Assembly: GCA_018436925.1 (NCBI GenBank)
Contig: JAHDKI010000010.1
Location: 1 to 64,000 of the forward strand
Length of the DNA stretch: 64,000 bases
DNA from: Syntrophaceae bacterium
GTDB lineage: Bacteria; Desulfobacterota; Syntrophia; Syntrophales; Smithellaceae
Reading direction: 5' to 3'
Position numbers and translations under genes: made by a program. This document shows positions 27,467-40,118 of this stretch, piece after piece; position 1 is the first letter of the stretch; each line of letters opens with the position of its first letter. The notes beneath the pieces were generated by a model, which saw only the letters and a program-made list of their open reading frames with translations, did not search any database and was not told the DNA's origin.

Positions 27467-30400
27467 TCAGGGTTTTGTGCCGACAAACCACTTCTCTTCC
27501 ACACCGGCCACAGACGACGAAGCCACTTTCACGTTCAGACCGGCGGCTCTCATCAAGCCGGCGATTTCCTCTTCCGACCGAAACCGGTGCGTCAGACCGG
27601 CGAGCGTGACGCGAGCCGATTCGACCCAGCGCTTCCAGGGCATCCTTCTGGCCGACGGCACGGTTGCCCGCACCAGAAGCATTCCCCCCGGTTCGAGCTT
27701 TTCATTAATGCGGGAAAGCGCCAGTTGAAACTCATCGTTGCTGATCAGGTGCAGCATGTCCAGCATCAAAACCGTATCCACCGGCCCGGCGACGTCGGGC
27801 AAATCCGGCGCACGTCCGGCTTGGACGGATCCGTTGGCTCCGATGACGCGCCGGGCGATCCAAACCCTTTCTTCATCGGGCTCCAGACCGAAAAACTGCG
27901 CCCGGGGATGCTTTGCCAGAAGCCAGGCGGCCGGAACGCCGAAACCGCAACCGATGTCCATAACCCGTCTTGGAGCGCCGATGAAACGATCCAATTCGCG
28001 AAACATCGGATCGATCCGTATCTTTAAACGCGCAAAGACCCGCGGATAGCCGGGCAGCAACCGGTAACGCGAAAGCGCCGCGCGAATCCGCTTACGGAAG
28101 TTCTCGGCGGGGGGACAAACGGACGGATCGCCCGGGGAAAAGATTTTTTCCATGGTCGCAGGCAGAATAAGATAAGTGCCCAAAAGCGAATAGGCGATTC
28201 CAAGAAGCGACACGACGCCGATGCTGCGCAAAAGAGGATGCTGGGCCAGCGCCAGAACGCCGAAACCGACAAAGGTGGTGGCCGCCGCCAGGAAAACGGA
28301 CAGCCTCACCGTCTGCATCTGCCAGGCGCCCGTGTCGGGATGGCGCTGATAGGTGCAGACATAATAGATCGCGTAATCGATACCCATCCCCATGATCACG
28401 ATCCAGAGCATGATGCCGGGAATGTCCAGCGGATGTCCGATCAGTTTCAGGGTACCCAGCGTCGCCACCAGCGCAAACACGATCGGGGCCAGCACCGCCA
28501 GCGACAGCCGCCACTCCAAAAAAAACAGGAAAACAACCAGCACAATGCCCACACTGACAATGAGCGCAATTTCAAGAAAAAGGCTTTGAAGAAACTCGCT
28601 CATTTTCCGGTTGAACAAATCCGCGTCAAACAGTTTCGCCTGACCGTTTCGGGCCAGACGATTGAAAAACTCCGACGCGTCATAATGCGCCCCGGTTGAA
28701 AGGAGATTGAGCTGCACCAGCCCGGAAGCGGTTTGGGTGATGCCCAACAATTCGAAATGCTTGGCGGGAATGGCCGCCGCTTGCGGATAGGGCGCCTCAA
28801 GCGAAGCCCAAAAGGGGGCGAAGGCATCCGGCGTAAAGCCGTATTCAGCCGCGGCTCGATCGAGTCTCGTTTTGAGCCCCGCGATGCGATCGGGCGTCCA
28901 GAATCCGCGCCAGGCGTCATAGTTTCGCCCGGCGGTCTCTTCAGACGGAAACAGCATGCCGGGCAAAAACGCGTCGGCCAGTTTTCCCCGGCGGAGATCC
29001 TCGCGCAACATCGGCAGGACAAGGTCGTTTTTATTCTGAAGCGACTGCATGTCCGGCGCTTCGATATATAAATAACATTTCCCGGACAGATCGCCCCAGA
29101 CGCTTTGAATCTTTTGCTCCGCGGCAAGCGTTTCCGGCCGGAGCGAATTCATCGCCTGCAGATCCACGTTAAACACCGGTTTGGCCAAAACCAGCATCGA
29201 CAGCCCAAAAATGAGCGCAAGGGCGACTTTCCACCAGGCGGGCGCGGCGATCCGTTCGATGGCTCGCACCAGCCACTGATTGCTGGCGCGTTTTGCCGGC
29301 GGCATCTCGGGAAAGATCTTCGGAAAGATGAAATGCACAAACAACAGCGCAAGCAAAGCGCCCAGCGCCGCAAAAACGCCGATTTGTGCCAGAATTTTAA
29401 AATCGCTGATAAGCAGCAGCGCGAACGCCCCCAGCGTGGTGAGCGCCGACAGACGTTCGGCGCTCCAGAGCTCGCGAGCGACCTGGGGCCCGTAAGTTCT
29501 CTGCGTGCGGTCCAGAAACAGAAGGTAGGTCAGGCCCAGATCCACAGTAAACGCCAGTATCGCCCCGCCGAACCCCACCGCCAGAATGGATATGGAATCA
29601 AATAAAAAAGAACAGATGAACAAAGCGCCCAGAGCGCCGACCGTGGAGGGAATGAGCGCCAAAAGCCCCAGAAGCGGACGGGGGAAAGTAACCAAAAGTA
29701 AAAAGGCGATCGACAGCGTCGTCAGCACGATCGCCACGCGCGTGTCCCTTTTGGCGGCGGTTTCATTGTCGAGTGCCGCCCGGTAGGCGCCTGCCGCGGC
29801 CAGTCCCTGGAAACCGCCCGCAAAATCCGGATGCGCACGCAGATCTTTTTCAATTTGCAAAATCGTGTCCGAGATGGCGGCGGCCCGGACCGTATCGGTT
29901 CCCGAACCGTCGATATGGGCGATGACGAGCGCATGCCGCCCGTCGGCGGAAAGCAGATGTCCCCGGTGAAACTGCGCTCCTTCCGACGGCACGAGTGAGG
30001 CCAAAGGCTTTAAAACGATCGCGGAAAAATCCAGCGGATCTTTGGCAATACGCGAGGCGCTGCCCAATCCTTCAAGCTGCCCGAGGCCCGCGCGGACCAG
30101 CGCAAGATGGGCGGAGATTTTTTCATCCGTTAAAAGCGGCTCGATTTTTTCCTCAAGATCGGCCGGCGAAAACAAAATCGGCAGGGAATCGGCCACATGC
30201 GCAATCAGATCGGGAAAATCCTCGGCCGCATCGTTCATACCTACGGTGGAAAAAAGTCCGCTTTGGCGCAGACGCTCCTCGACAAACGAGGCCGCGCGGG
30301 CGACGGCCGTCCGGTCGGTTGACGCCCATTCCAGATCGACAATGATGCGGTCCTGAACAGGGAGGTGGCTGATAATGAGTCTGGCATCGGCCAGAACCGG

Positions 30401-30535
30401 ATCGTCATGCGGCATCGACTCCAGAATGTCGGTTTCGATATTGAGCGCCCGGTTCTCCCAGGCAAAAAGCGCCAAGACGATCACCGCCACCCAGACGACC
30501 CATCGCCACCTGATCGAATGTTTGCCTGAAACCAT
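27467..30535 (-). CDS. RND/MMPL-family exporter fused to a SAM-dependent methyltransferase
   Basis: 1022 residues from ATG 30535; a GTG at 30595 is possible but lacks a ribosome-binding site. Residues about 8-840 are an MMPL/HpnN-like exporter: two repeats, each of one membrane helix, a large periplasmic domain and five more helices (e.g. VGFGGAILAFTVDLGLTYLLF, then IVIMGMGIDYAIYYVCTYQ in the second half). The last 170 residues are a class I methyltransferase: VMDIGCGFGVPAA (motif I), FGLEPDEERV, MLDMLHLISND, and LEPGGMLLVRA. MMPL proteins move lipids or polyketide-like products; separate MMPL and methyltransferase genes occur in aryl-polyene clusters, but no such cluster is here. A genuine gene fusion, not a frame error, since the frame is continuous. 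Confidence 0.85.
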   Translation of the reverse strand: MVSGKHSIRWRWVVWVAVIVLALFAWENRALNIETDILESMPHDDPVLADARLIISHLPVQDRIIVDLEWASTDRTAVARAASFVEERLRQSGLFSTVGMNDAAEDFPDLIAHVADSLPILFSPADLEEKIEPLLTDEKISAHLALVRAGLGQLEGLGSASRIAKDPLDFSAIVLKPLASLVPSEGAQFHRGHLLSADGRHALVIAHIDGSGTDTVRAAAISDTILQIEKDLRAHPDFAGGFQGLAAAGAYRAALDNETAAKRDTRVAIVLTTLSIAFLLLVTFPRPLLGLLALIPSTVGALGALFICSFLFDSISILAVGFGGAILAFTVDLGLTYLLFLDRTQRTYGPQVARELWSAERLSALTTLGAFALLLISDFKILAQIGVFAALGALLALLFVHFIFPKIFPEMPPAKRASNQWLVRAIERIAAPAWWKVALALIFGLSMLVLAKPVFNVDLQAMNSLRPETLAAEQKIQSVWGDLSGKCYLYIEAPDMQSLQNKNDLVLPMLREDLRRGKLADAFLPGMLFPSEETAGRNYDAWRGFWTPDRIAGLKTRLDRAAAEYGFTPDAFAPFWASLEAPYPQAAAIPAKHFELLGITQTASGLVQLNLLSTGAHYDASEFFNRLARNGQAKLFDADLFNRKMSEFLQSLFLEIALIVSVGIVLVVFLFFLEWRLSLAVLAPIVFALVATLGTLKLIGHPLDIPGIMLWIVIMGMGIDYAIYYVCTYQRHPDTGAWQMQTVRLSVFLAAATTFVGFGVLALAQHPLLRSIGVVSLLGIAYSLLGTYLILPATMEKIFSPGDPSVCPPAENFRKRIRAALSRYRLLPGYPRVFARLKIRIDPMFRELDRFIGAPRRVMDIGCGFGVPAAWLLAKHPRAQFFGLEPDEERVWIARRVIGANGSVQAGRAPDLPDVAGPVDTVLMLDMLHLISNDEFQLALSRINEKLEPGGMLLVRATVPSARRMPWKRWVESARVTLAGLTHRFRSEEEIAGLMRAAGLNVKVASSSVAGVEEKWFVGTKP

Positions 30536-30967
30536 GCAAGATCCTAAATTAACGGCGGTATTTTTTCCGCAAGCCGTGAGTGGACTTTTAACCACAAATC
30601 GACCGGGGTGGCAAGGGAAAACGCCCCATCTGCATCCATATGAATTTCTTAAATAATATTACTATCTGCCGCATCTTGATTTTTGCAAAAAAAGGCTTAA
30701 GTTTTTTATCAAGAAGGTCGATTATAGAAACAAAAGAGAGCTTCTGGAGTGCGCGCAAGCGACTCAGGATGGCGGAATCGAACAAAAAGAAGACTACAGC
30801 GGTCCAATGACCCGGAAGATGTCCGTAGGGACCGAAAGACTTGAACAGCGATTCCAGCCGGATCGAATCCCAACGGCACATCCGGAGCCAAATACCCTCC
30901 GTGGCCCCCTCCCGGGGGGTATTCTTTTTTCATCAGCATATTGTCAAAATAAAAAAAGCGCGGATGG
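30536..30967 (+). other. Non-coding leader of the TPR signalling operon
   Basis: 432 bases between divergent genes. I see no convincing small gene. The plus strand ends in a terminator-like hairpin (30891-30930) only 38 bases before the operon's first ATG, and an earlier stem GGTCC/GGACC is possible near 30805-30835. A weak promoter (TTATAG at 30722-27) would give a leader of about 200 bases. Since no plus-strand gene precedes the hairpin, it is either an attenuator or the end of a small RNA. Confidence 0.45.
30891..30930 (+). terminator. Intrinsic terminator/attenuator before the signalling operon
   Basis: AATACCC (30891-30897) pairs with GGGTATT (30917-30923) enclosing a C-rich/G-rich inner stem; CTTTTTT follows. 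The T-tract is on the plus strand only. Position just upstream of ATG 30968 suggests attenuation. Confidence 0.65.
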
Positions 30968-32611
30968 ATGGTGAAGCAGGAAGCTACGGCAAACATCAAT
31001 CTCAAGATGAAAAAAGTTCTGGTCGTCGACGATTTTTTCAACTTTCGTCTGACGATGAAGAATATGCTGCGTTCGCTGGGCATCATGTACATCGACGACG
31101 CGGCCAACGGCGAAGAAGCCATCAAAAAACTCGCCGCCCGGAAATTCGACATTATTTTGTGCGACTATAACCTCGGTCCCGGCAAATCCGGACAGCAGGT
31201 TCTTGAAGAAGCCAAATACCGCGGATACATCAACTACGCAGGGATTTTTATCATGGTCACGGCGGAAAACACGCTGGAGATGATCATGGGCGCCATGGAG
31301 TATGAACCCGACGACTACCTGATGAAACCCTTCGCCAAGGAAGTTCTCGAAAAGAAAATCAAATCCGTCACCTTGAAAAAAGAAAACGTCCGAGACATCG
31401 AAAAGGCGATCATCGACAGCGATTTCGACCACGCCTTGCGCATCTGCGACGAACTGATCGCCCAGTCTCCTGCGAACCTTGCGGAAATCATGAAACTCAA
31501 AGGAGAGGTGCTGCTGAAAAAGGGCGCCTACGCGGAGGCGGCCGAATTTTACGACAAGGTGCTCACCATGGGAAACATGACCTGGGCGCGCCTGGGACGC
31601 GGCCGGGCCGATCTGCTTCTGGGCCGTTATGAAGACGCCAAAAACAGGTTTGAAGAGATCCTGGCGCAAAACAATAAAGTGATTGCCGCCTATGACGAGC
31701 TGGCCAGAACCTATCTGAAGTCGGGACAGCCCGAAGAAGCGCAGCAGGTTCTGATGAAAGCCGCCGCGATCTCGCCGCGCGCGCTGCTTCGGCACAAGAC
31801 CCTGGGCGGCCTCGCTTACCGTAATGAGGATTACACCACCGCCGAAACCTCCTTCCGGGCGGCCGTGGTCCACGGCAAGCACTCTTGTTTTAAAACCACA
31901 TCCGATTACACGCAACTGGCCAAATCGATGGTCATGCGCGACGCGCTCCAGGAAAGCCTTCAGGTTCTGGGGCAGGCGTCCCGGGAATTTCCGGAATCGC
32001 CCGACACCCGGCTGCATCTGTCGGCCGCGGAAAGCCTGGTCTACACGAAAATGAACAAGCCCGCCGAAGCCAAGCGCGCCCTGGCCCAGGCGCATAAGTA
32101 CGCGCAGGATCTTGCAGGCGACCTGCCGTCGGCCGTCGCGCTGGATCTGGCCCAGGCGCATCTGCTGGCCGGAGACGTGGAAAAAGGCACCGACATCATC
32201 CGGGGCGTCATCGGCGCCAATCACGACAACGACGACGTGCTCAACACCATCCGGATCGTTTTTAAAGAAACCGGCATGCCCGAAAAAGGCGAAAAGATCA
32301 TCAAAGACACGACGGAAGACATCATGCGCCTCAACAACGAAGGCGTCGATCTTGCGCGCCGGGGAAAACTCGCCGAGGCCATCGATTACTTCGAAAAAGC
32401 CGCCGCCAGGTTGCCGGAAAATAAAATCATCAATGCCAACGCGGCTCAGGTGCTCATGCTGTTCATGAAACAAAACGGCCCCGACGAGGAACGCTTAAGC
32501 AAGGCTTCCTCCTATCTGGAGCGCGTGCGTCGAATCGACGGCGCCTACGCCGACATTCCGATGCTGCTTTCCATGTATCGCGAGCTCGCGTCCAGGGAGG
32601 TTTCCTCATGA
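30968..32611 (+). CDS. Response regulator with receiver domain and TPR repeats
   Basis: 547 residues. Residues about 14-135 are a receiver: VLVVDDFF, phospho-acceptor Asp66 in LCDYNLGPGKSG, VTAENT and DDYLMKPFAKE. There is no DNA-binding domain. The remaining 400 residues are helical TPR-like repeats (KLKGEVLLKKGAYAEAAEFYDKV, given by type; ARLGRGRADLLLGRYEDAK; NNEGVDLARRGKLAEAIDY), so output is probably protein-protein interaction. ATG 30968 is used; ATG 31007 is a possible later start. The stop codon overlaps the kinase start by four bases (ATGA), implying that kinase and regulator are made together. Confidence 0.85.
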   Translation: MVKQEATANINLKMKKVLVVDDFFNFRLTMKNMLRSLGIMYIDDAANGEEAIKKLAARKFDIILCDYNLGPGKSGQQVLEEAKYRGYINYAGIFIMVTAENTLEMIMGAMEYEPDDYLMKPFAKEVLEKKIKSVTLKKENVRDIEKAIIDSDFDHALRICDELIAQSPANLAEIMKLKGEVLLKKGAYAEAAEFYDKVLTMGNMTWARLGRGRADLLLGRYEDAKNRFEEILAQNNKVIAAYDELARTYLKSGQPEEAQQVLMKAAAISPRALLRHKTLGGLAYRNEDYTTAETSFRAAVVHGKHSCFKTTSDYTQLAKSMVMRDALQESLQVLGQASREFPESPDTRLHLSAAESLVYTKMNKPAEAKRALAQAHKYAQDLAGDLPSAVALDLAQAHLLAGDVEKGTDIIRGVIGANHDNDDVLNTIRIVFKETGMPEKGEKIIKDTTEDIMRLNNEGVDLARRGKLAEAIDYFEKAAARLPENKIINANAAQVLMLFMKQNGPDEERLSKASSYLERVRRIDGAYADIPMLLSMYRELASREVSS

Positions 32612-33300
32612 CGCCCAAAATGAGTTTTTCCGACATTCTCGCCTCAACGCTGCATGACACCAAAAATTCTCTGGGGATTCTGTTTAACAACCTCGAGAAC
32701 ATCATCGCCGGATGCCGGGAAAAAAACTGCGCGCAATATCAGGATTTTTATCTCCTGCAGTATGAAATCAAAAGACTCAACCACAGCCTGATCCGCCTTT
32801 TGTCTTTGTACAAGGCGGAGAAATCCCAATTGACGATGAATGTGGATTTTCACTCCGCCCGAGAGCTTCTTGAAGACGTAGCCGTTCAACATGAAATTCT
32901 GCTTGCCTCCCGCGGCATTCAAGTGGATATCGATTGCGACGGCGGACTTTTTCACGCGATGGATCGAAATCTGATCATGGGCGTCATCGACAACATCATC
33001 AATAATGCGTTTCGCTACACGAAATCGGCCGTCCGCCTGAGCGCCGCAGTCGACGGCGGCTATTTTGTCATCCGGGTCGAAGATGACGGCGACGGCTATC
33101 CGCCGTCCATGCTCTTCAACGAGCAGCAAGACCCGAATTTTTCCGGCAACGTGGATTTCAGCACCGGCTCCACAGGCCTGGGCCTGTACTTTTCCACGAT
33201 GGTCGCGCAAATGCATGTCAACCGGGACCAAAGCGGCTTTATTTCCATCTATAACGGCGGAACGCTGCGCGGCGGCGTGTTTTCCATTTATCTGCCTTAA
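32608..33300 (+). CDS. Soluble sensor-less histidine kinase
   Basis: 230 residues, short for a kinase because there is no sensor or membrane domain. H-box STLHDTKNSLGIL carries His16. After a dimerisation helix come N-box DNIINNAFRYT, G1 VEDDGDGYPP and G2 GSTGLGLYFST, a complete HATPase_c domain. Input must come from partners, plausibly the TPR proteins on either side. It shares a four-base overlap with the receiver-TPR gene, its most likely phosphotransfer partner. Confidence 0.85.
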   Translation: MTPKMSFSDILASTLHDTKNSLGILFNNLENIIAGCREKNCAQYQDFYLLQYEIKRLNHSLIRLLSLYKAEKSQLTMNVDFHSARELLEDVAVQHEILLASRGIQVDIDCDGGLFHAMDRNLIMGVIDNIINNAFRYTKSAVRLSAAVDGGYFVIRVEDDGDGYPPSMLFNEQQDPNFSGNVDFSTGSTGLGLYFSTMVAQMHVNRDQSGFISIYNGGTLRGGVFSIYLP

Positions 33301-33314
33301 ACAGGGAAAAGGCG

Positions 33315-34178
33315 ATGGCGGCAAAAATTTCAAACATCACGGAACTGTTTCACCGCTTCCATCAGTGCGAAATGCAGCTTCGGCAGGGCAAAATCGCCTC
33401 GTGCCTGATCAACTTCCGCGACATCCTGGCCAGAATGCCGGCCATCCCCATTACGGAAAAAGAAAAAACGGAACTCAACGCCGGCATCGAGCTTTTTTTA
33501 CGCAATCTTTCTGCGCACAAGACATTTCAGGAAATCTTCGGCGAGGTTTCTTTCACCGACACTGATCTGGCCACCAATCTCGAATTCATCAAAAGCATGA
33601 TTGCGGCCCAGGAAGAAGAAATTGTTGAGAAAGTCAAGAAAGACGAGGAAGCCGCGGAGTTCCAACGCCTGGAAATCGCCCGGGAAGAGCAGGAACGCCT
33701 TGAAACGCTGCGCAATAAAGTCTCTCAGGCCGTGGCCCACATCAATGAGGGCAATCTGCCTGCCGCCCTGGAGATTATCGCCGAAAGTGAAGAAATCGCC
33801 AACGACGTCGTCGCCCATTTCAACGAGGAGGGCATGCGGCATCGGGAAGCGAAAAAATTCGACGACGCGGTCGCCTGCTACCAAAAAGCGCTTGAAGTCG
33901 CCGCGGACGATGAACACCTGCACTACAACATTGCTCGCGCGTATTATGAAGCTGAACATCTCGACAAAGCCGAAGAACTTCTGGCCAAAGCCCTGCAGAT
34001 CAATCCGGATTTCGAAGAGGGAAAGTCTTTTTACACCTTTCTTTTGAAGCTTCGCTATCCTTCGGGGGAAGAGTCCGCTGCGGAAGCGCCGCCGGGACTC
34101 TTGTCGCGAATCCTGCAAAAGCTCAAAGGGCTGAAAAAAAACAAAGCTCCTGAAGAACCGGCACCGGCCGGCAAGTAA
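33315..34178 (+). CDS. TPR-containing cytoplasmic protein
   Basis: 287 residues, no signal peptide. The N-terminal 95 residues are helical (FHRFHQCEMQLRQGKIASC), followed by a long charged coiled coil (about 95-140, EEEIVEKVKKDEEAAEFQR). Three TPR-like units follow in the C-terminal half (GMRHREAKKFDDAVACYQKA, YNIARAYYEAEHLDKAEELL). The basic Lys/Pro-rich tail ends the chain. It lies 14 bases after the kinase gene. Probable scaffold of the signalling complex; no enzymatic motif. Confidence 0.7.
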   Translation: MAAKISNITELFHRFHQCEMQLRQGKIASCLINFRDILARMPAIPITEKEKTELNAGIELFLRNLSAHKTFQEIFGEVSFTDTDLATNLEFIKSMIAAQEEEIVEKVKKDEEAAEFQRLEIAREEQERLETLRNKVSQAVAHINEGNLPAALEIIAESEEIANDVVAHFNEEGMRHREAKKFDDAVACYQKALEVAADDEHLHYNIARAYYEAEHLDKAEELLAKALQINPDFEEGKSFYTFLLKLRYPSGEESAAEAPPGLLSRILQKLKGLKKNKAPEEPAPAGK

Positions 34179-34204
34179 GGCGTTCGGGCGGCGTCCGCGC
34201 CGCG

Positions 34205-34255
34205 AAAAAGAGGGGATCGGGCTTCCCAATCGGCCATTGACCTGCCGCCTCTTTT
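34205..34255 (+). terminator. Possible internal terminator of the signalling operon
   Basis: AAAAAGAGG (34205-34213) pairs with CCTCTTTT (34248-34255) around a 34-base loop with partial inner pairing. It could reduce expression of the two distal genes. Long loop, so modest confidence. Confidence 0.35.
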
Positions 34256-34390
34256 GATCTAATAGAAAACCAGAAGAGCGTCTGTCGCAGGAACAGTCCC
34301 CCCAAATCCGCCGCGCCCTTTGATTCCGGCTTACGGGGATGTCGAAACGCAGGCTTCCGGCGCGACGCAAGATTTGAAACCAAGAAAAAG

Positions 34391-35848
34391 ATGGCTCTGA
34401 ATTTCAGACAGTTGAACCGGATTGCGTTGGTTACCGTGCAGTCCCCGTCGCGGCTGGCCAAAGGCGCAGGAAGACGGATCCGCGCAGGATACCGGTCGCT
34501 GAGCCTTCGTTTTAAAATCGCCCTCTTCGTCGTCGTCGTCATGACGTGCACCTCTTTTGTTCTGTCGCTTCTCACCGTTGAGATCATGAACAACTACCTC
34601 AAAAACGAAATCATCAAACGCGGCGAAGCCATCGGCAGAAGCATCGCCGCCTCCGCCGGCTACAGTCTGTTGTCAAACGATCTGCTTGGGCTCGACAATC
34701 TCGTTTTCAAGGCAAAAGCGTCCAACGCCGACATCGAATACGCCGCGGTCGTGACCTCCGACATGCAAATTCGCGCGCACAGCGACATGACGCAAAACGG
34801 CAAGGTCTTTTCACTCCCGCCGGGCAACCTGCTCGGCACCCGGTCCGATGCGACCATCATCCGGCAGGTGGACGCGTCAGACGGCTCCGTCTTTGAAATC
34901 ACCGCCCCGGTTGTCTTTATGAACAAAACGCTGGGAAGCGTCGTTGTGGCCGTCAACACATCCGTTTTGCTTGCGGCGCAGGCGGAAGTCCGCACCCGCA
35001 TCTTCATTGTCTTCGGCATTATTCTTGTTTTGGGCACGATTGCCAGCGTTTTGCTGGCCTCATTTATCATCCGGCCGATCCGGGAGCTCTCGGCGGGCGT
35101 CAACAGAATGAAAGACGGCGTGTCCAAGGCGCCTTTGAAAATATACTCCGATGACGAACTGGGCAAACTGACCCTCAACTTCAACGAAATGTCGTCCACC
35201 ATCGCCCGGCAGCAAAGCAAGCTCAACAAGTACGCCCGCGATCTGGAGGAGGCTTACGTCTCCATCGTCCGGGTGGTCGCGGCGGCCATCGACGCCAAAG
35301 ATCCCTATACTCACGGACATTCAGCCCGCGTGGCCGCGTTGTCGGTCCGTTTGGGAGAAGCGATCGGCCTGTCGTCGGGCGAACTCAAAGACCTTGAAGT
35401 CGCCTGTTTGTTTCATGATGTCGGAAAAATCAAGACGCCCGACGCCATCTTGCGCAAACCGGGCGGTCTGGATGAACCCGAATACGAAGAAATGATTCAG
35501 CATGTCGAAGACGGCGTCGCGATTCTCGACAAGGCCCCCTCGCTGCGCAAATATATTCCCGCCGTCAGACATCATCATGAGCGCCAGGACGGCAAGGGCT
35601 ATCCCGACGGCTTGTCGGGCGAGGACATTCCGCTTTTTGCCTCCCTCATCGCCGTGGCCGACACCTTTGACGCGATGACGACGGATCGCCCCTACCGCAA
35701 AGCGCTGTCCGAAGAAGAAGCGCTTCGCGAACTTGTCCGGATCGCGGGCCCGAAGCTGCGGGCCGATCTGGTGGCCGTTTTTGTGGGCATTATCAATGAA
35801 GGCCGCGCGTCCGGACCGCCCCGGACCGCCGCAGGACATGCGTCATGA
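34391..35848 (+). CDS. Membrane HAMP/HD-GYP c-di-GMP phosphodiesterase
   Basis: 485 residues. Basic N-terminus, membrane helix about 42-65 (FKIALFVVVVMTCTSFVLS), a periplasmic sensor region of about 150 residues, second helix about 213-238, and a HAMP domain (SFIIRPIRELSAGVNRM). HD-GYP follows: HGHSARVAAL, LFHDVGKIKTPDAIL (HD pair), RHHHERQDGKGYPDGL (GYP), and ADTFDAMTTDRPYRK. All metal-binding residues expected for an active c-di-GMP hydrolase appear present. Ends in a four-base overlap with the lipoprotein gene. The link to the kinase genes upstream suggests a c-di-GMP output. Confidence 0.9.
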   Translation: MALNFRQLNRIALVTVQSPSRLAKGAGRRIRAGYRSLSLRFKIALFVVVVMTCTSFVLSLLTVEIMNNYLKNEIIKRGEAIGRSIAASAGYSLLSNDLLGLDNLVFKAKASNADIEYAAVVTSDMQIRAHSDMTQNGKVFSLPPGNLLGTRSDATIIRQVDASDGSVFEITAPVVFMNKTLGSVVVAVNTSVLLAAQAEVRTRIFIVFGIILVLGTIASVLLASFIIRPIRELSAGVNRMKDGVSKAPLKIYSDDELGKLTLNFNEMSSTIARQQSKLNKYARDLEEAYVSIVRVVAAAIDAKDPYTHGHSARVAALSVRLGEAIGLSSGELKDLEVACLFHDVGKIKTPDAILRKPGGLDEPEYEEMIQHVEDGVAILDKAPSLRKYIPAVRHHHERQDGKGYPDGLSGEDIPLFASLIAVADTFDAMTTDRPYRKALSEEEALRELVRIAGPKLRADLVAVFVGIINEGRASGPPRTAAGHAS

Positions 35849-36441
35849 TTTCCTTACACCAACGCCGCTTGCTTGTATCCGTTCTCCTGATGACGCTGGT
35901 TTTCCAGGCCTGTGCGCTGATTAAAAGAGAGATGCCGGGCCGTCCCTCCGCTTCGGCCGCTCCGGCCCCTCCGGCCGCATCCACCGTTTTGCCTCCTGAG
36001 CAAATTCGTCAGCAGATGGAGGCCGGAAACTACCGGCAGGCCGTTGACCTCCATAAGGCCGCAATGGCCTCCGAACCCCAAAATAAAAATCTGGTTCGCG
36101 CCTTCGAAATCAGTCTCGAAGACATTTATCTGAAAGCGGAAAAAGCCGCCGCGGCCAATGATTTTGCCGCCGCGGGAAAACTCTATCATCTGATTTACGG
36201 AAATTATCCGGACCCGAAAGGAACAGCCCAAACTCTTTCATTCACCCGGGCGGGACTGGCCTCGAAACTGGAACAGTGCAAATCCGCTTTATACCACAGA
36301 GGGTTTCAGGAATACCGAGACGGCAATCTCAACCGGGCCATCGCTGTGTGGCAGGACTACTTAAGCCTTGAGCCGGACAATGCCGACATCCAAAAGGCCC
36401 TGAACACGGCAAAGACCCAGCAGAAAAATCTCCGCCCCTGA
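35845..36441 (+). CDS. TPR-type lipoprotein
   Basis: 198 residues. The signal peptide ends in a lipobox VFQAC (Cys about 23), so it should be lipidated and membrane-anchored outside the cytoplasm. A Pro/Ala linker precedes helical repeats (IRQQMEAGNYRQAVDLHKAA; YHRGFQEYRDGNLNRAIAV; a unit ending SLEPDNADIQKAL). The Ser at +2... is not seen; residue after Cys is Ala, so outer-membrane sorting is expected by the +2 rule. It overlaps the HD-GYP gene by four bases and closes the operon; it may present a periplasmic signal to the phosphodiesterase. Confidence 0.75.
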   Translation: MISLHQRRLLVSVLLMTLVFQACALIKREMPGRPSASAAPAPPAASTVLPPEQIRQQMEAGNYRQAVDLHKAAMASEPQNKNLVRAFEISLEDIYLKAEKAAAANDFAAAGKLYHLIYGNYPDPKGTAQTLSFTRAGLASKLEQCKSALYHRGFQEYRDGNLNRAIAVWQDYLSLEPDNADIQKALNTAKTQQKNLRP

Positions 36442-36756: not shown

Positions 36757-37644
36757 TTAATCCCGGATCTTCACCAGGCTTGCATCCGCCAAGCAGGTGC
36801 GGCTGGTGATGTATTTATAGTAATCCGAAAATGCGAGTTGCCAGGGCTGCATGGTTTTGCCGGTTGCGTTCATGAATTTCTGCATACTCAGCACGCTGTA
36901 GGCCGGCCGCGGCGCAGACCTTTTAAGTTCGGAGGTTTTGATGGCAGCAAGCGATACATGCTCCAGATTCGCCTCTTTAAGAATTCTTTTGGCAAACTCA
37001 AACCAACTGCAATAGCCACGGTTGGTCACATGAAAAATTCCCCTGCCCTTTTTGTCGTGCAGCAGTTCCGTGGCGGCCGCAAGATCGCGGGTGCAGGTGG
37101 GGGATCCGATCTGATCATCCACCACGGTAAGCGCTCCCGTCGTTGCGGCTTTCTCCAAAATAGCGGAGACGAAATTCCTTCCCTTAAGGCCGTAAAGCCA
37201 GGCGGTGCGGATGATGAGCCAGTCGTCGGCGATCTCCTGAAGGTATTTTTCCCCCGCGAGCTTCGAGGCGCCGTAGACGCTGACCGGTCTGCAGGGATGG
37301 TCTTCCTCGTAGGGTTTAGTCTGCGTCCCGTCGAAAACATAATCCGTGCTGTAGTGGATGATCAAAATCCCTTTTCCCTTGCACGCCGACGCGATATTTT
37401 TAACGGCCTCGGCGTTGACGGCATAGCACGCGTCACGATCCGTTTCACAGCCGTCCACGTTGGTATAGGCCGCGGCATTGATCACGATCTGCGGACAGAC
37501 CTCGCCGACAGCGCGATGGACGTCGCCTTCCCGCGTGATGTCGATGTCGTCCATGTCCATCCCCACCACTTCGTGGCGGTGACGAAACTGAGCCGCCAGA
37601 TCGCTGCCCAACATGCCTTTATGGCCCAGAAGCAATACTTTCAT
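36757..37644 (-). CDS. rfbD: dTDP-4-dehydrorhamnose reductase
   Basis: 295 residues, usual length. Rossmann start KVLLLGHKGMLGSDLA, VINAAAYTNVDGCE, HYSTDYVFDG and the catalytic YGASKLAGE (Tyr and Lys of the SDR motif) are all present. It reduces dTDP-4-keto-rhamnose to dTDP-L-rhamnose for surface polysaccharide. The other rml genes are not in the window, so the isolated copy may serve another NDP-sugar. Start overlaps the truA stop codon by four bases. Confidence 0.88.
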   Translation of the reverse strand: MKVLLLGHKGMLGSDLAAQFRHRHEVVGMDMDDIDITREGDVHRAVGEVCPQIVINAAAYTNVDGCETDRDACYAVNAEAVKNIASACKGKGILIIHYSTDYVFDGTQTKPYEEDHPCRPVSVYGASKLAGEKYLQEIADDWLIIRTAWLYGLKGRNFVSAILEKAATTGALTVVDDQIGSPTCTRDLAAATELLHDKKGRGIFHVTNRGYCSWFEFAKRILKEANLEHVSLAAIKTSELKRSAPRPAYSVLSMQKFMNATGKTMQPWQLAFSDYYKYITSRTCLADASLVKIRD

Positions 37645-38387
37645 ACCTTTGAGTACTTGACCTCCTTGAGAAAAAGTCCCTGCGCCGGCGCGGTGGCGCC
37701 GGCGATTTTCCGATCGCGCGATGCGATGATGTCTTTCATGTCGTCGGGTTTGCGTTTGCCGCGGCCCACCTCAACGAGTGTGCCGACGATGTTGCGGACC
37801 ATATACTTTAAAAACCCTTTCGCTTCCACGGTTATTTCCAGCATGCCGTTTGCGCCGGTTTTCACCTGAATATTCCGCAATGTGCGGATTCGGTCGGCCA
37901 CGTCGGTCCCGGTGGCGCAGAAACACGAATAGTCGTGTGTGCCCAGCATTTTGCCCGCCGCCTCCCGCATGGCGTCGACATTGAGCGGGACGCGGACATG
38001 CCAGCAGTACTCGCGGCCGATCACCGGACGCAAAGGCGCGTTGCAGATGCGATAGACGTAGGTCTTGCCCGTCACGTCGCGCTGGGCGTGAAAATCCAAA
38101 GAGACTTCTTCCAGATTCTTCACAACGATATCCGGGGGCAGGAGACTGTTGATCCCCCGGAAGATTTTATCGGCCGCAAGGGGGGTTTCACTGCGAAAGC
38201 TCGCCACCTGGGCGATGGCGTGCACCCCTGCGTCGGTTCGCCCGGAGCCTACGATTTTGACTTTTCCCGACGTCACCGTGCCTGCCGCGTCTTCGAGAAT
38301 CTGCTGAACGGAGGGCCCGTTTTTCTGCCTTTGCCAGCCGCAATAGGCCGCGCCGTCGTATTCCACTGTTAATTTAAAGTTTCTCAT
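37641..38387 (-). CDS. truA: tRNA pseudouridine(38-40) synthase
   Basis: 248 residues from ATG 38387 (MRNFKLTVEYDGAAYCGWQ), where similarity to the family begins; the frame runs upstream to 38561 without family sequence. Catalytic Asp in GSGRTDAGVHAIAQV at about 50-64, then FHAQRDVTGKTYVYRI, and GFLKYMVRNIVGTLVEVGRGK-type block near the end. It modifies uridines 38-40 of tRNA anticodon arms. Overlaps rfbD by four bases. Confidence 0.95.
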   Translation of the reverse strand: MRNFKLTVEYDGAAYCGWQRQKNGPSVQQILEDAAGTVTSGKVKIVGSGRTDAGVHAIAQVASFRSETPLAADKIFRGINSLLPPDIVVKNLEEVSLDFHAQRDVTGKTYVYRICNAPLRPVIGREYCWHVRVPLNVDAMREAAGKMLGTHDYSCFCATGTDVADRIRTLRNIQVKTGANGMLEITVEAKGFLKYMVRNIVGTLVEVGRGKRKPDDMKDIIASRDRKIAGATAPAQGLFLKEVKYSKV

Positions 38388-38546
38388 GGATCGTGAATCG
38401 GACTTGCCAGTTTTTTTCAAAAAGGATATGTGTCGGACCAATTCCACCAAGAACTGGACGGCCCCGGGCTTTCCCGGAGCGCCGCGATAGTAGCTTACGC
38501 GATGGCGATGGTCAAGATAAAACAAATATAAATAAGGAGAGGCTTT

Positions 38547-40118
38547 ATGAGCGAAGAACAAAAAGCGTCAACCACTCAGGGGAAAATTCAGGATTTCGAA
38601 GCGCGCGCGCAGGCTCTTCGGAAAATGGGGGGAGACAAGGCCGTCACCAAGCAGCACGAAGGCGGTAAACTCACGGCCCGCGAGCGACTGAATCTGTTGT
38701 TCGATGAAGGAACCTTTCAGGAAGTTCAGCTCTTTGTAAAGCATCATTCCACGCTTTTCGGCATGGACAAAAAAGACATCCCCGCCGACGGCGTGATCAC
38801 GGGCTTCGGTCAGGTCAACGGCCGAACTGTTTTCGCGGCTTCGCAGGATTTTACCGCCGCCGGCGGCACACTCGGAGAAATGCATGCTAAAAAGATCTGG
38901 AAAGTCATGGATATGGCTATCGCCGCGCGCAAGCCGTTTGTCGCCATCAACGATTCCGGCGGCGCGCGCATCCAGGAAGGCGTCCCGTCGCTGGAAGGCT
39001 ACGGCGGCATCTTCTACCGCAACACGATCGCATCGGGCTACATTCCGCAGATCACGGCCATCATGGGTCCGACGGCGGGCGGCGCCGTGTATTCACCGGC
39101 GCTCACCGACTGGATTTTCATGGTGAAGGATAAATCCTACATGTACATCACCGGCCCGGATGTCATCAAAGCCGTCATCGGCGAGGACGTGTCGCAAAAC
39201 GACCTGGGCGGCGCGGTGGCGCACGCGGCAAAAAGCGGCGTGTGCCATGTGGTGACGGAAAGCGACGAGGACTGCATCAACAAAATCAAAACCCTGCTGT
39301 CGTATCTGCCCGACAGCTGCCAGAGCCTTCCGGCGGTCGTCGCGCCAACCGATTCAGCGGACCGGCTCTGCCCGGAACTCGACAAAATCATTCCCGACAA
39401 GGCGGCGCGCGCCTACAATATGAAAGCGGTCATCAAGGCGGTCGCCGACAACGGCACGCTGTTCGAACTGCACGAGCAGTGGGCGCAAAACATTCTCGTC
39501 GCGCTCATCCGCGTCATGGGCCAACCCGTCGGCGTCATCGCCAATAACCCCATGTTCTACGCGGGCGTGCTCAACGTCAACGCCTCGGACAAGGCCGCGC
39601 GCTTTATCCGTTTTTGCGACGCCTTCAATATTCCGCTTCTGACCTTCACCGATGTGCCGGGTTACATGCCCGGCACCGAGCAGGAATGGGCGGGCATCAT
39701 CCGCCACGGCGCGAAGCTTCTGCACGCCTATTCGGAAGCCACCGTGCCGAAAATCACCGTGGTCACCCGCAAGGCTTACGGCGGGGCTTACATCGGCATG
39801 TGCTGCAAACAGCTCGGCGCGGATTACGTCATGGCCTGGCCGACGGCGGAAATCGCCGTGATGGGCGCGGAAGGCGCCTGCAATATCATCTATCGCGGCG
39901 AGATCTCTCAGGCTTCCGACCCGGCGGCCAAGCGCGCGGAGCTCATCGCGGGTTATGAAGAAAAATTCAACAATCCCTATTTCGCCGCCTCGCTGGGCGC
40001 AATCGATGAAGTGCTCCCGCCGCAGCACACGCGAAAAAGGATCATTGCGATTCTGGAGGCGATGAAGGATAAGAAAGAAGCGAGGGTTGCAAAGAAGCAT
40101 AATAATATACCGCTGTAG
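38547..40118 (+). CDS. Biotin-dependent acyl-CoA carboxyltransferase / decarboxylase alpha subunit (MmdA/PccB/GcdA-like)
   Basis: 523 residues with GGAGAG before ATG 38547. Two crotonase-like carboxyltransferase halves: N-terminal KLTARERLNLLFDEGTF, GGTLGEMHAKKI, INDSGGARIQEGVPSL, GPTAGGAVYSPAL; C-terminal FTDVPGYMPGTEQEWAGI, TRKAYGGAYIGMC and MGAEGACNIIY. It moves CO2 between biotin and acyl-CoA. No biotin carrier, biotin carboxylase or membrane decarboxylase subunit is adjacent. The following glutaconate-type CoA-transferase genes hint at a glutaconyl-CoA decarboxylase or acyl-CoA carboxylase role, but substrate is not certain. Own terminator at 40148. Confidence 0.85.
   Translation: MSEEQKASTTQGKIQDFEARAQALRKMGGDKAVTKQHEGGKLTARERLNLLFDEGTFQEVQLFVKHHSTLFGMDKKDIPADGVITGFGQVNGRTVFAASQDFTAAGGTLGEMHAKKIWKVMDMAIAARKPFVAINDSGGARIQEGVPSLEGYGGIFYRNTIASGYIPQITAIMGPTAGGAVYSPALTDWIFMVKDKSYMYITGPDVIKAVIGEDVSQNDLGGAVAHAAKSGVCHVVTESDEDCINKIKTLLSYLPDSCQSLPAVVAPTDSADRLCPELDKIIPDKAARAYNMKAVIKAVADNGTLFELHEQWAQNILVALIRVMGQPVGVIANNPMFYAGVLNVNASDKAARFIRFCDAFNIPLLTFTDVPGYMPGTEQEWAGIIRHGAKLLHAYSEATVPKITVVTRKAYGGAYIGMCCKQLGADYVMAWPTAEIAVMGAEGACNIIYRGEISQASDPAAKRAELIAGYEEKFNNPYFAASLGAIDEVLPPQHTRKRIIAILEAMKDKKEARVAKKHNNIPL

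Follow-up and report, generated by a model that had tools for sequence, protein, structure and literature searches.

A five-gene TPR, histidine kinase and HD-GYP locus of a Syntrophaceae bacterium probably combines two independent signalling modules

Do five adjacent genes of a Syntrophaceae bacterium encode a single signalling complex, or do they belong to more than one unit? The question is raised by a stretch of contig JAHDKI010000010.1 in which an earlier note had recognized TPR proteins, a kinase and an HD-GYP protein and had joined them into a candidate new c-di-GMP complex. The window, that is, the whole stretch of DNA analysed, comprises 64,000 nucleotides. Five co-directional open reading frames with the domains claimed for them are indeed present (open reading frame list and Pfam), and they are considered real genes because orthologues in other genomes exhibit 34-74% identity. 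They are given here with a neighbouring structured RNA and with the module, A or B, to which each is assigned below.

30968..32611, plus strand: gene 1, module A, receiver (REC)-TPR response regulator, 547 aa (open reading frame; Pfam Response_reg 3.5e-18 and TPRs)
32608..33300, plus strand: gene 2, module A, soluble histidine kinase, 230 aa (Pfam HATPase_c 1.8e-10)
33315..34178, plus strand: gene 3, module A in the window's family only, cytosolic TPR protein, 287 aa (TPRs at ~172-238)
34391..35848, plus strand: gene 4, module B, predicted membrane sCache_3-HAMP-HD-GYP phosphodiesterase, 485 aa (HD_5 9.6e-36, HAMP, sCache_3_2)
35845..36441, plus strand: gene 5, module B, TPR lipoprotein, 198 aa (weak TPR match in Pfam)
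30733..30931, plus strand: structured RNA of ~196 nt with an intrinsic terminator at 30904-30930 (covariance model, covariation)

Genes 1 and 2 overlap by 4 bp, as do genes 4 and 5, and a gap of 212 bp separates gene 3 from gene 4. Neither a plus-strand terminator nor a sigma-70-like promoter was predicted in this gap, and co-transcription of modules A and B in the window's genome is possible. The start position used by the relatives of gene 1 corresponds to the GTG at 30971 of the window, which may be the start codon of this gene.

All five genes were looked for in 149 Syntrophales genomes. The five-gene order, whose presence in other genomes the earlier note had itself proposed as a check, was found in none of the 148 others, those of the same genus included; many of these genomes are MAGs on short contigs, and at some loci a neighbour may have been missed. 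Genes 1-3 and genes 4-5 occur together only in the window's genome, and the co-occurrence of modules A and B is at chance level (Fisher P = 0.41; one genome in both lists). Because the gene lists and the neighbourhoods of the two modules are separate, the five-gene order is best regarded as a local juxtaposition. The single conserved complex has to be given up, as its gene order recurs nowhere and genes 4 and 5 behave as an independent pair. Module A is kept without genes 4-5 in 17 genomes, and module B without genes 1-3 in three; module A is, moreover, cytosolic, and the earlier assertion that a periplasmic signal must be relayed by TPR contacts finds no support. The gene content of the locus, the conservation of its genes, the integrity of their domains and motifs, and their co-occurrence make it probable that the locus comprises two independent signalling modules that became neighbours by a lineage-specific juxtaposition: a soluble two-component pair (A) and a c-di-GMP phosphodiesterase paired with a lipoprotein (B). 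Phosphotransfer, TPR contacts, thiol sensing and contact between lipoprotein and sensor domain are activities that we infer for them. Separating the modules keeps a false five-part complex out of the record and isolates a testable two-gene unit, a kinase/REC-TPR pair that Syntrophales-related bacteria retain or lose as a whole.

Orthologues of the receiver-TPR protein and of the kinase are found in exactly the same 18 of the 149 genomes, distributed over four families (Fisher 1e-23), and the two genes are adjacent at all 18 loci, separated by -11 to +54 nt. The set is sharply delimited: the kinase search of the 149 genomes yielded 18 strong matches with E < 1e-68, followed by generic kinases at ~1e-11. 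A truncated kinase homologue is present in another class of the phylum. The coupling proposed for genes 1 and 2 is thus upheld as an obligate adjacent pair across four families, without the five-part complex that had been built around it. No third partner conserved across all lineages was found beside module A among the loci examined, and in 10 of the 18 genomes the pair stands without any further conserved partner.

The receiver residues D22, D66, T98 and K120 are invariant in 17 orthologues, and the acidic pair, Asp, Thr and Lys are therewith complete. The earlier choice of Asp66 (codon at 31163-31165) as the predicted phospho-acceptor is borne out by its invariance in these 17 orthologues. 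Because the receiver is canonical, the output would most simply be a phosphorylation-dependent change in TPR binding. According to the proposed mechanism, the kinase would autophosphorylate on H16 (codon at 32653-32655) and pass the phosphate on to the receiver-TPR protein at D66, and phosphorylated D66 would alter the binding choice of the TPR solenoid. For the transfer step, the 18/18 co-occurrence and the adjacency of the two genes provide indirect support only. Judged from its genes, module A appears to be a two-component system variant with a REC-TPR output that is new relative to the known ones.

The closest counterpart of gene 1 is VieB of Vibrio cholerae, which binds its kinase VieS and blocks both autophosphorylation and phosphotransfer, subject to modulation by D62, in a system that controls c-di-GMP via a phosphodiesterase (PMC4352251). 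The likeness is one of layout: an N-terminal receiver is followed by TPRs, a DNA-binding output is missing and the protein is encoded with a histidine kinase. Pfam likewise assigns to gene 1 a receiver and then TPRs, with no HTH, and the literature on REC-TPR proteins yielded nothing closer. The analogy raises the possibility that the REC-TPR protein of module A inhibits its kinase until D66 is phosphorylated, instead of serving as an effector that acts through a downstream partner. However, module A contains no other conserved response regulator that such an inhibitor could gate, and the pair is sufficient by itself in 10 of 18 genomes; kinase inhibition is considered rather unlikely as its role. 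The operons differ as well. The kinase of module A is a soluble, sensorless protein of 230 aa, unlike the large, membrane-bound hybrid kinase VieS, and the pair has no conserved phosphodiesterase companion comparable to VieA, a response regulator that itself contains a phosphodiesterase domain. A VieB-type operon with a hybrid kinase and a phosphodiesterase response regulator is not matched, as the kinase consists of DHp and CA only and the pair is flanked in the window by no phosphodiesterase response regulator, and a receiver-bearing phosphodiesterase directly adjoins the pair in a single relative, G085 (1/18 loci).

REC-TPR regulators of Aeromonas, Vibrio and Photobacterium exhibit the same full-length layout as gene 1. 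The Aeromonas caviae protein (L127:3950-5596; 548 aa) shares 25% identity over 89% of the query, and because this homologue is full-length, the REC-TPR architecture extends beyond Syntrophales. No kinase of the module A type was found beside the REC-TPR copies examined in Aeromonas, Photobacterium and V. campbellii.

The kinase comprises the DHp and HATPase domains only. H16, N132/N133, D159-G161-G163 and the G190-G192 region are conserved in 18 orthologues, and its profile aligns with SrrB (6paj) over the DHp-CA region. The description of gene 2 as a kinase lacking a sensor is accurate insofar as there is no separate sensor domain, and what is present is a complete DHp and CA core with H16 and the N- and G-boxes. 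The variable DHp hairpin contains just two residues that are invariant in the 18 orthologues, C36 (32713-32715) and C41 (32728-32730), which form a CX4C motif. A structure model of the kinase, of low confidence (mean pLDDT 57.8) and used for helix boundaries only, has helices at residues 7-39 and 45-72; in it, C36 would tentatively fall close to where helix 1 ends, and C41 in the turn that precedes helix 2. The conserved cysteines of the kinase occupy an unusual position, and the CX4C motif, at the DHp hairpin tip, is a candidate thiol, redox or metal sensor. In the proposed mechanism the kinase input is probably cytosolic and the CX4C motif would act as a thiol, redox or metal switch; should C36 and C41 sense, the signal would enter within the DHp domain itself.

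A kinase without a sensor domain is also what would be expected of a larger sensory array, in which a membrane receptor encoded elsewhere recruits the kinase and the CX4C motif is purely structural. In one relative (L057) the pair has an MCP gene next to it, but no receptor is conserved adjacent to the pair and Pfam detects no CheW-like P5 domain in the kinase. Membership in such an array appears doubtful, and a self-contained soluble pair that signals through contacts between proteins, in the manner of VieB, is the preferred reading of module A.

Gene 3 adjoins the kinase in all eight genomes of the window's family, and its orthologue (E < 1e-86) is confined, among the 149 genomes searched, to the eight family genomes that carry the kinase. 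The cytosolic TPR protein, counted earlier as a part of the unit, is accordingly tied to the pair within this family and not elsewhere. In the proposed mechanism it is the likely partner of the TPR solenoid in the window's family, a role that in other lineages may be taken by an HD-GYP protein or by the kinase itself. Weaker paralogues of gene 3 with ~30-35% identity are present at other sites in some 40 genomes, an example being G000:C30:196591-197247 (L091; ~33% identity). One paralogue (G016, L094) lies near chemotaxis-type genes; that copy apart, the paralogue contexts differ and were set aside as a clue to function. A J-domain protein of 250-285 aa is encoded near gene 3 in most family relatives, usually convergently (L009:9648-10502 and six further loci). 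This gene is missing beside gene 3 in the window; its place there is taken by the HD-GYP pair.

Does the neighbourhood of module A nevertheless suggest a link with c-di-GMP? The 18 genomes with module A have an HD-GYP domain density of ~2.9 per Mb. At a distance of up to 2.5 kb, a limit picked after inspection of the data, HD-GYP genes lie near module A at 4 of 18 loci vs 0.23 expected (P 9e-5), and at 3 of 17 vs 0.21 expected when the window is left out (P 0.0014). In G085 the kinase gene is immediately followed by a REC-HD-GYP gene, in G107 a different HD-GYP gene immediately precedes gene 1, and in G009 a GAF-HD-GYP gene is located 1.7 kb upstream of module A. The HD-GYP proteins concerned have different architectures and are not mutual orthologues. 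A functional tie between module A and c-di-GMP is graded as a weak lead because signalling genes cluster and the 2.5-kb limit was chosen post hoc. Of the c-di-GMP role first envisaged for the locus, a tie of the pair is thus possible, in that unrelated HD-GYP genes recur nearby above the density expectation.

The same excess, together with the REC-HD-GYP gene right behind the kinase in G085, can be cited for a single lineage-specific circuit of all five genes, in which the kinase/REC-TPR pair controls the adjacent HD-GYP protein via TPR contacts in the window's genome only. The genes are co-directional, the 212-bp gap is devoid of a predicted terminator, and the two modules could have been recruited together. 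Against this, three genomes carry module B but lack A and 17 carry A but lack B, the HD-GYP proteins near module A are of different, non-orthologous kinds, and signalling genes cluster anyway, which leaves the single circuit an unlikely explanation. Still less likely is the complete chain in which the sensorless kinase senses redox state or metal via the CX4C motif and phosphorylates a REC-TPR adaptor that docks on the neighbouring HD-GYP protein of each lineage. Two separate modules remain the preferred reading.

With respect to module B, the HD-GYP protein contains HD at residues 342-343 (35414-35419) and HHERQDGKGYP at 395-405 (35573-35605). The motif is complete, lies in the HD_5 domain, and its catalytic residues are invariant among the orthologues; gene 4 is predicted to encode a c-di-GMP phosphodiesterase of the inner membrane. 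The gene is found in four genomes at E < 1e-180 among the 149 searched, and the TPR lipoprotein gene is found in the same four, always adjacent. The lipobox cysteine C23 (35911-35913) is invariant in the four lipoprotein orthologues. RpfG-type REC-HD-GYP proteins share the catalytic motif and are represented next to module A by the G085 gene, whereas the window's HD-GYP protein carries sCache-HAMP in place of a receiver. By domain content, therefore, direct phosphotransfer to this protein is not expected.

The nearest working analogy for module B is the YfiBNR (TpbB) system of Pseudomonas, in which an outer-membrane lipoprotein tunes an inner-membrane HAMP c-di-GMP enzyme (PMC4887326). Both systems combine a lipoprotein with an enzyme of this kind. 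In contrast to module B, the YfiN enzyme is a cyclase rather than a phosphodiesterase and YfiB is not a TPR protein; neither a YfiR-like periplasmic protein nor a GGDEF output is present at module B in the window. The TPR lipoprotein may read or modulate the periplasmic sCache-HAMP region of the phosphodiesterase. In two relatives a GGDEF gene is located directly upstream of module B (L071:2343-5760 and L072:7073-10356), possibly forming a cyclase-phosphodiesterase-lipoprotein cassette. The truA gene and an rfbD-like gene flank module B in the window (36757-38561) and lie ~4.6 kb away from it in L073 (6855-8531), which suggests that this neighbourhood is its older home.

The conserved RNA block at 30733-30931 lies between gene 1 and a divergent MMPL gene. 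A covariance model search retrieved its family from 50 of the 149 genomes, with up to three copies per genome at varied loci. Among 31 members, 38 of 48 pairs have changed on both sides, and the covariation score was 0.398 vs 0.190 for shuffles and ≤0.098 for slid controls, in an alignment that was fitted to the model and thereby favours structure. As the terminator precedes the start codon of gene 1, the RNA was considered as a leader or attenuator of this gene; its homologues, located at many unrelated loci, led to the rejection of this role. No Rfam family, RF00013 (6S) included, scored above cut-off for the RNA in the window and at 20 homologue loci. The architecture is compatible with 6S, with a closing stem, a large central bubble and a long terminal stem. 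Two homologues matched RF00013 weakly (28.0 and 26.7 bits), these being the two lowest E-values of the search on those loci for the RNA position, and a reverse model of the family (R2) matched the genome's canonical 6S locus weakly (20 bits, E 0.007). That canonical 6S resides on another contig and scores 93.5 bits with RF00013, and the RNA was accordingly dismissed as the main 6S of the genome. On balance, the evidence leans toward a divergent second 6S-type RNA, in which case anaerobic syntrophs would be added to the few bacterial groups that have two 6S-type RNAs. The MMPL gene (27467-30595, minus strand) encodes a putative MMPL/RND-type exporter with a C-terminal methyltransferase-like fusion, as assigned by sequence reading, and is divergent from gene 1 in all eight family genomes with module A.
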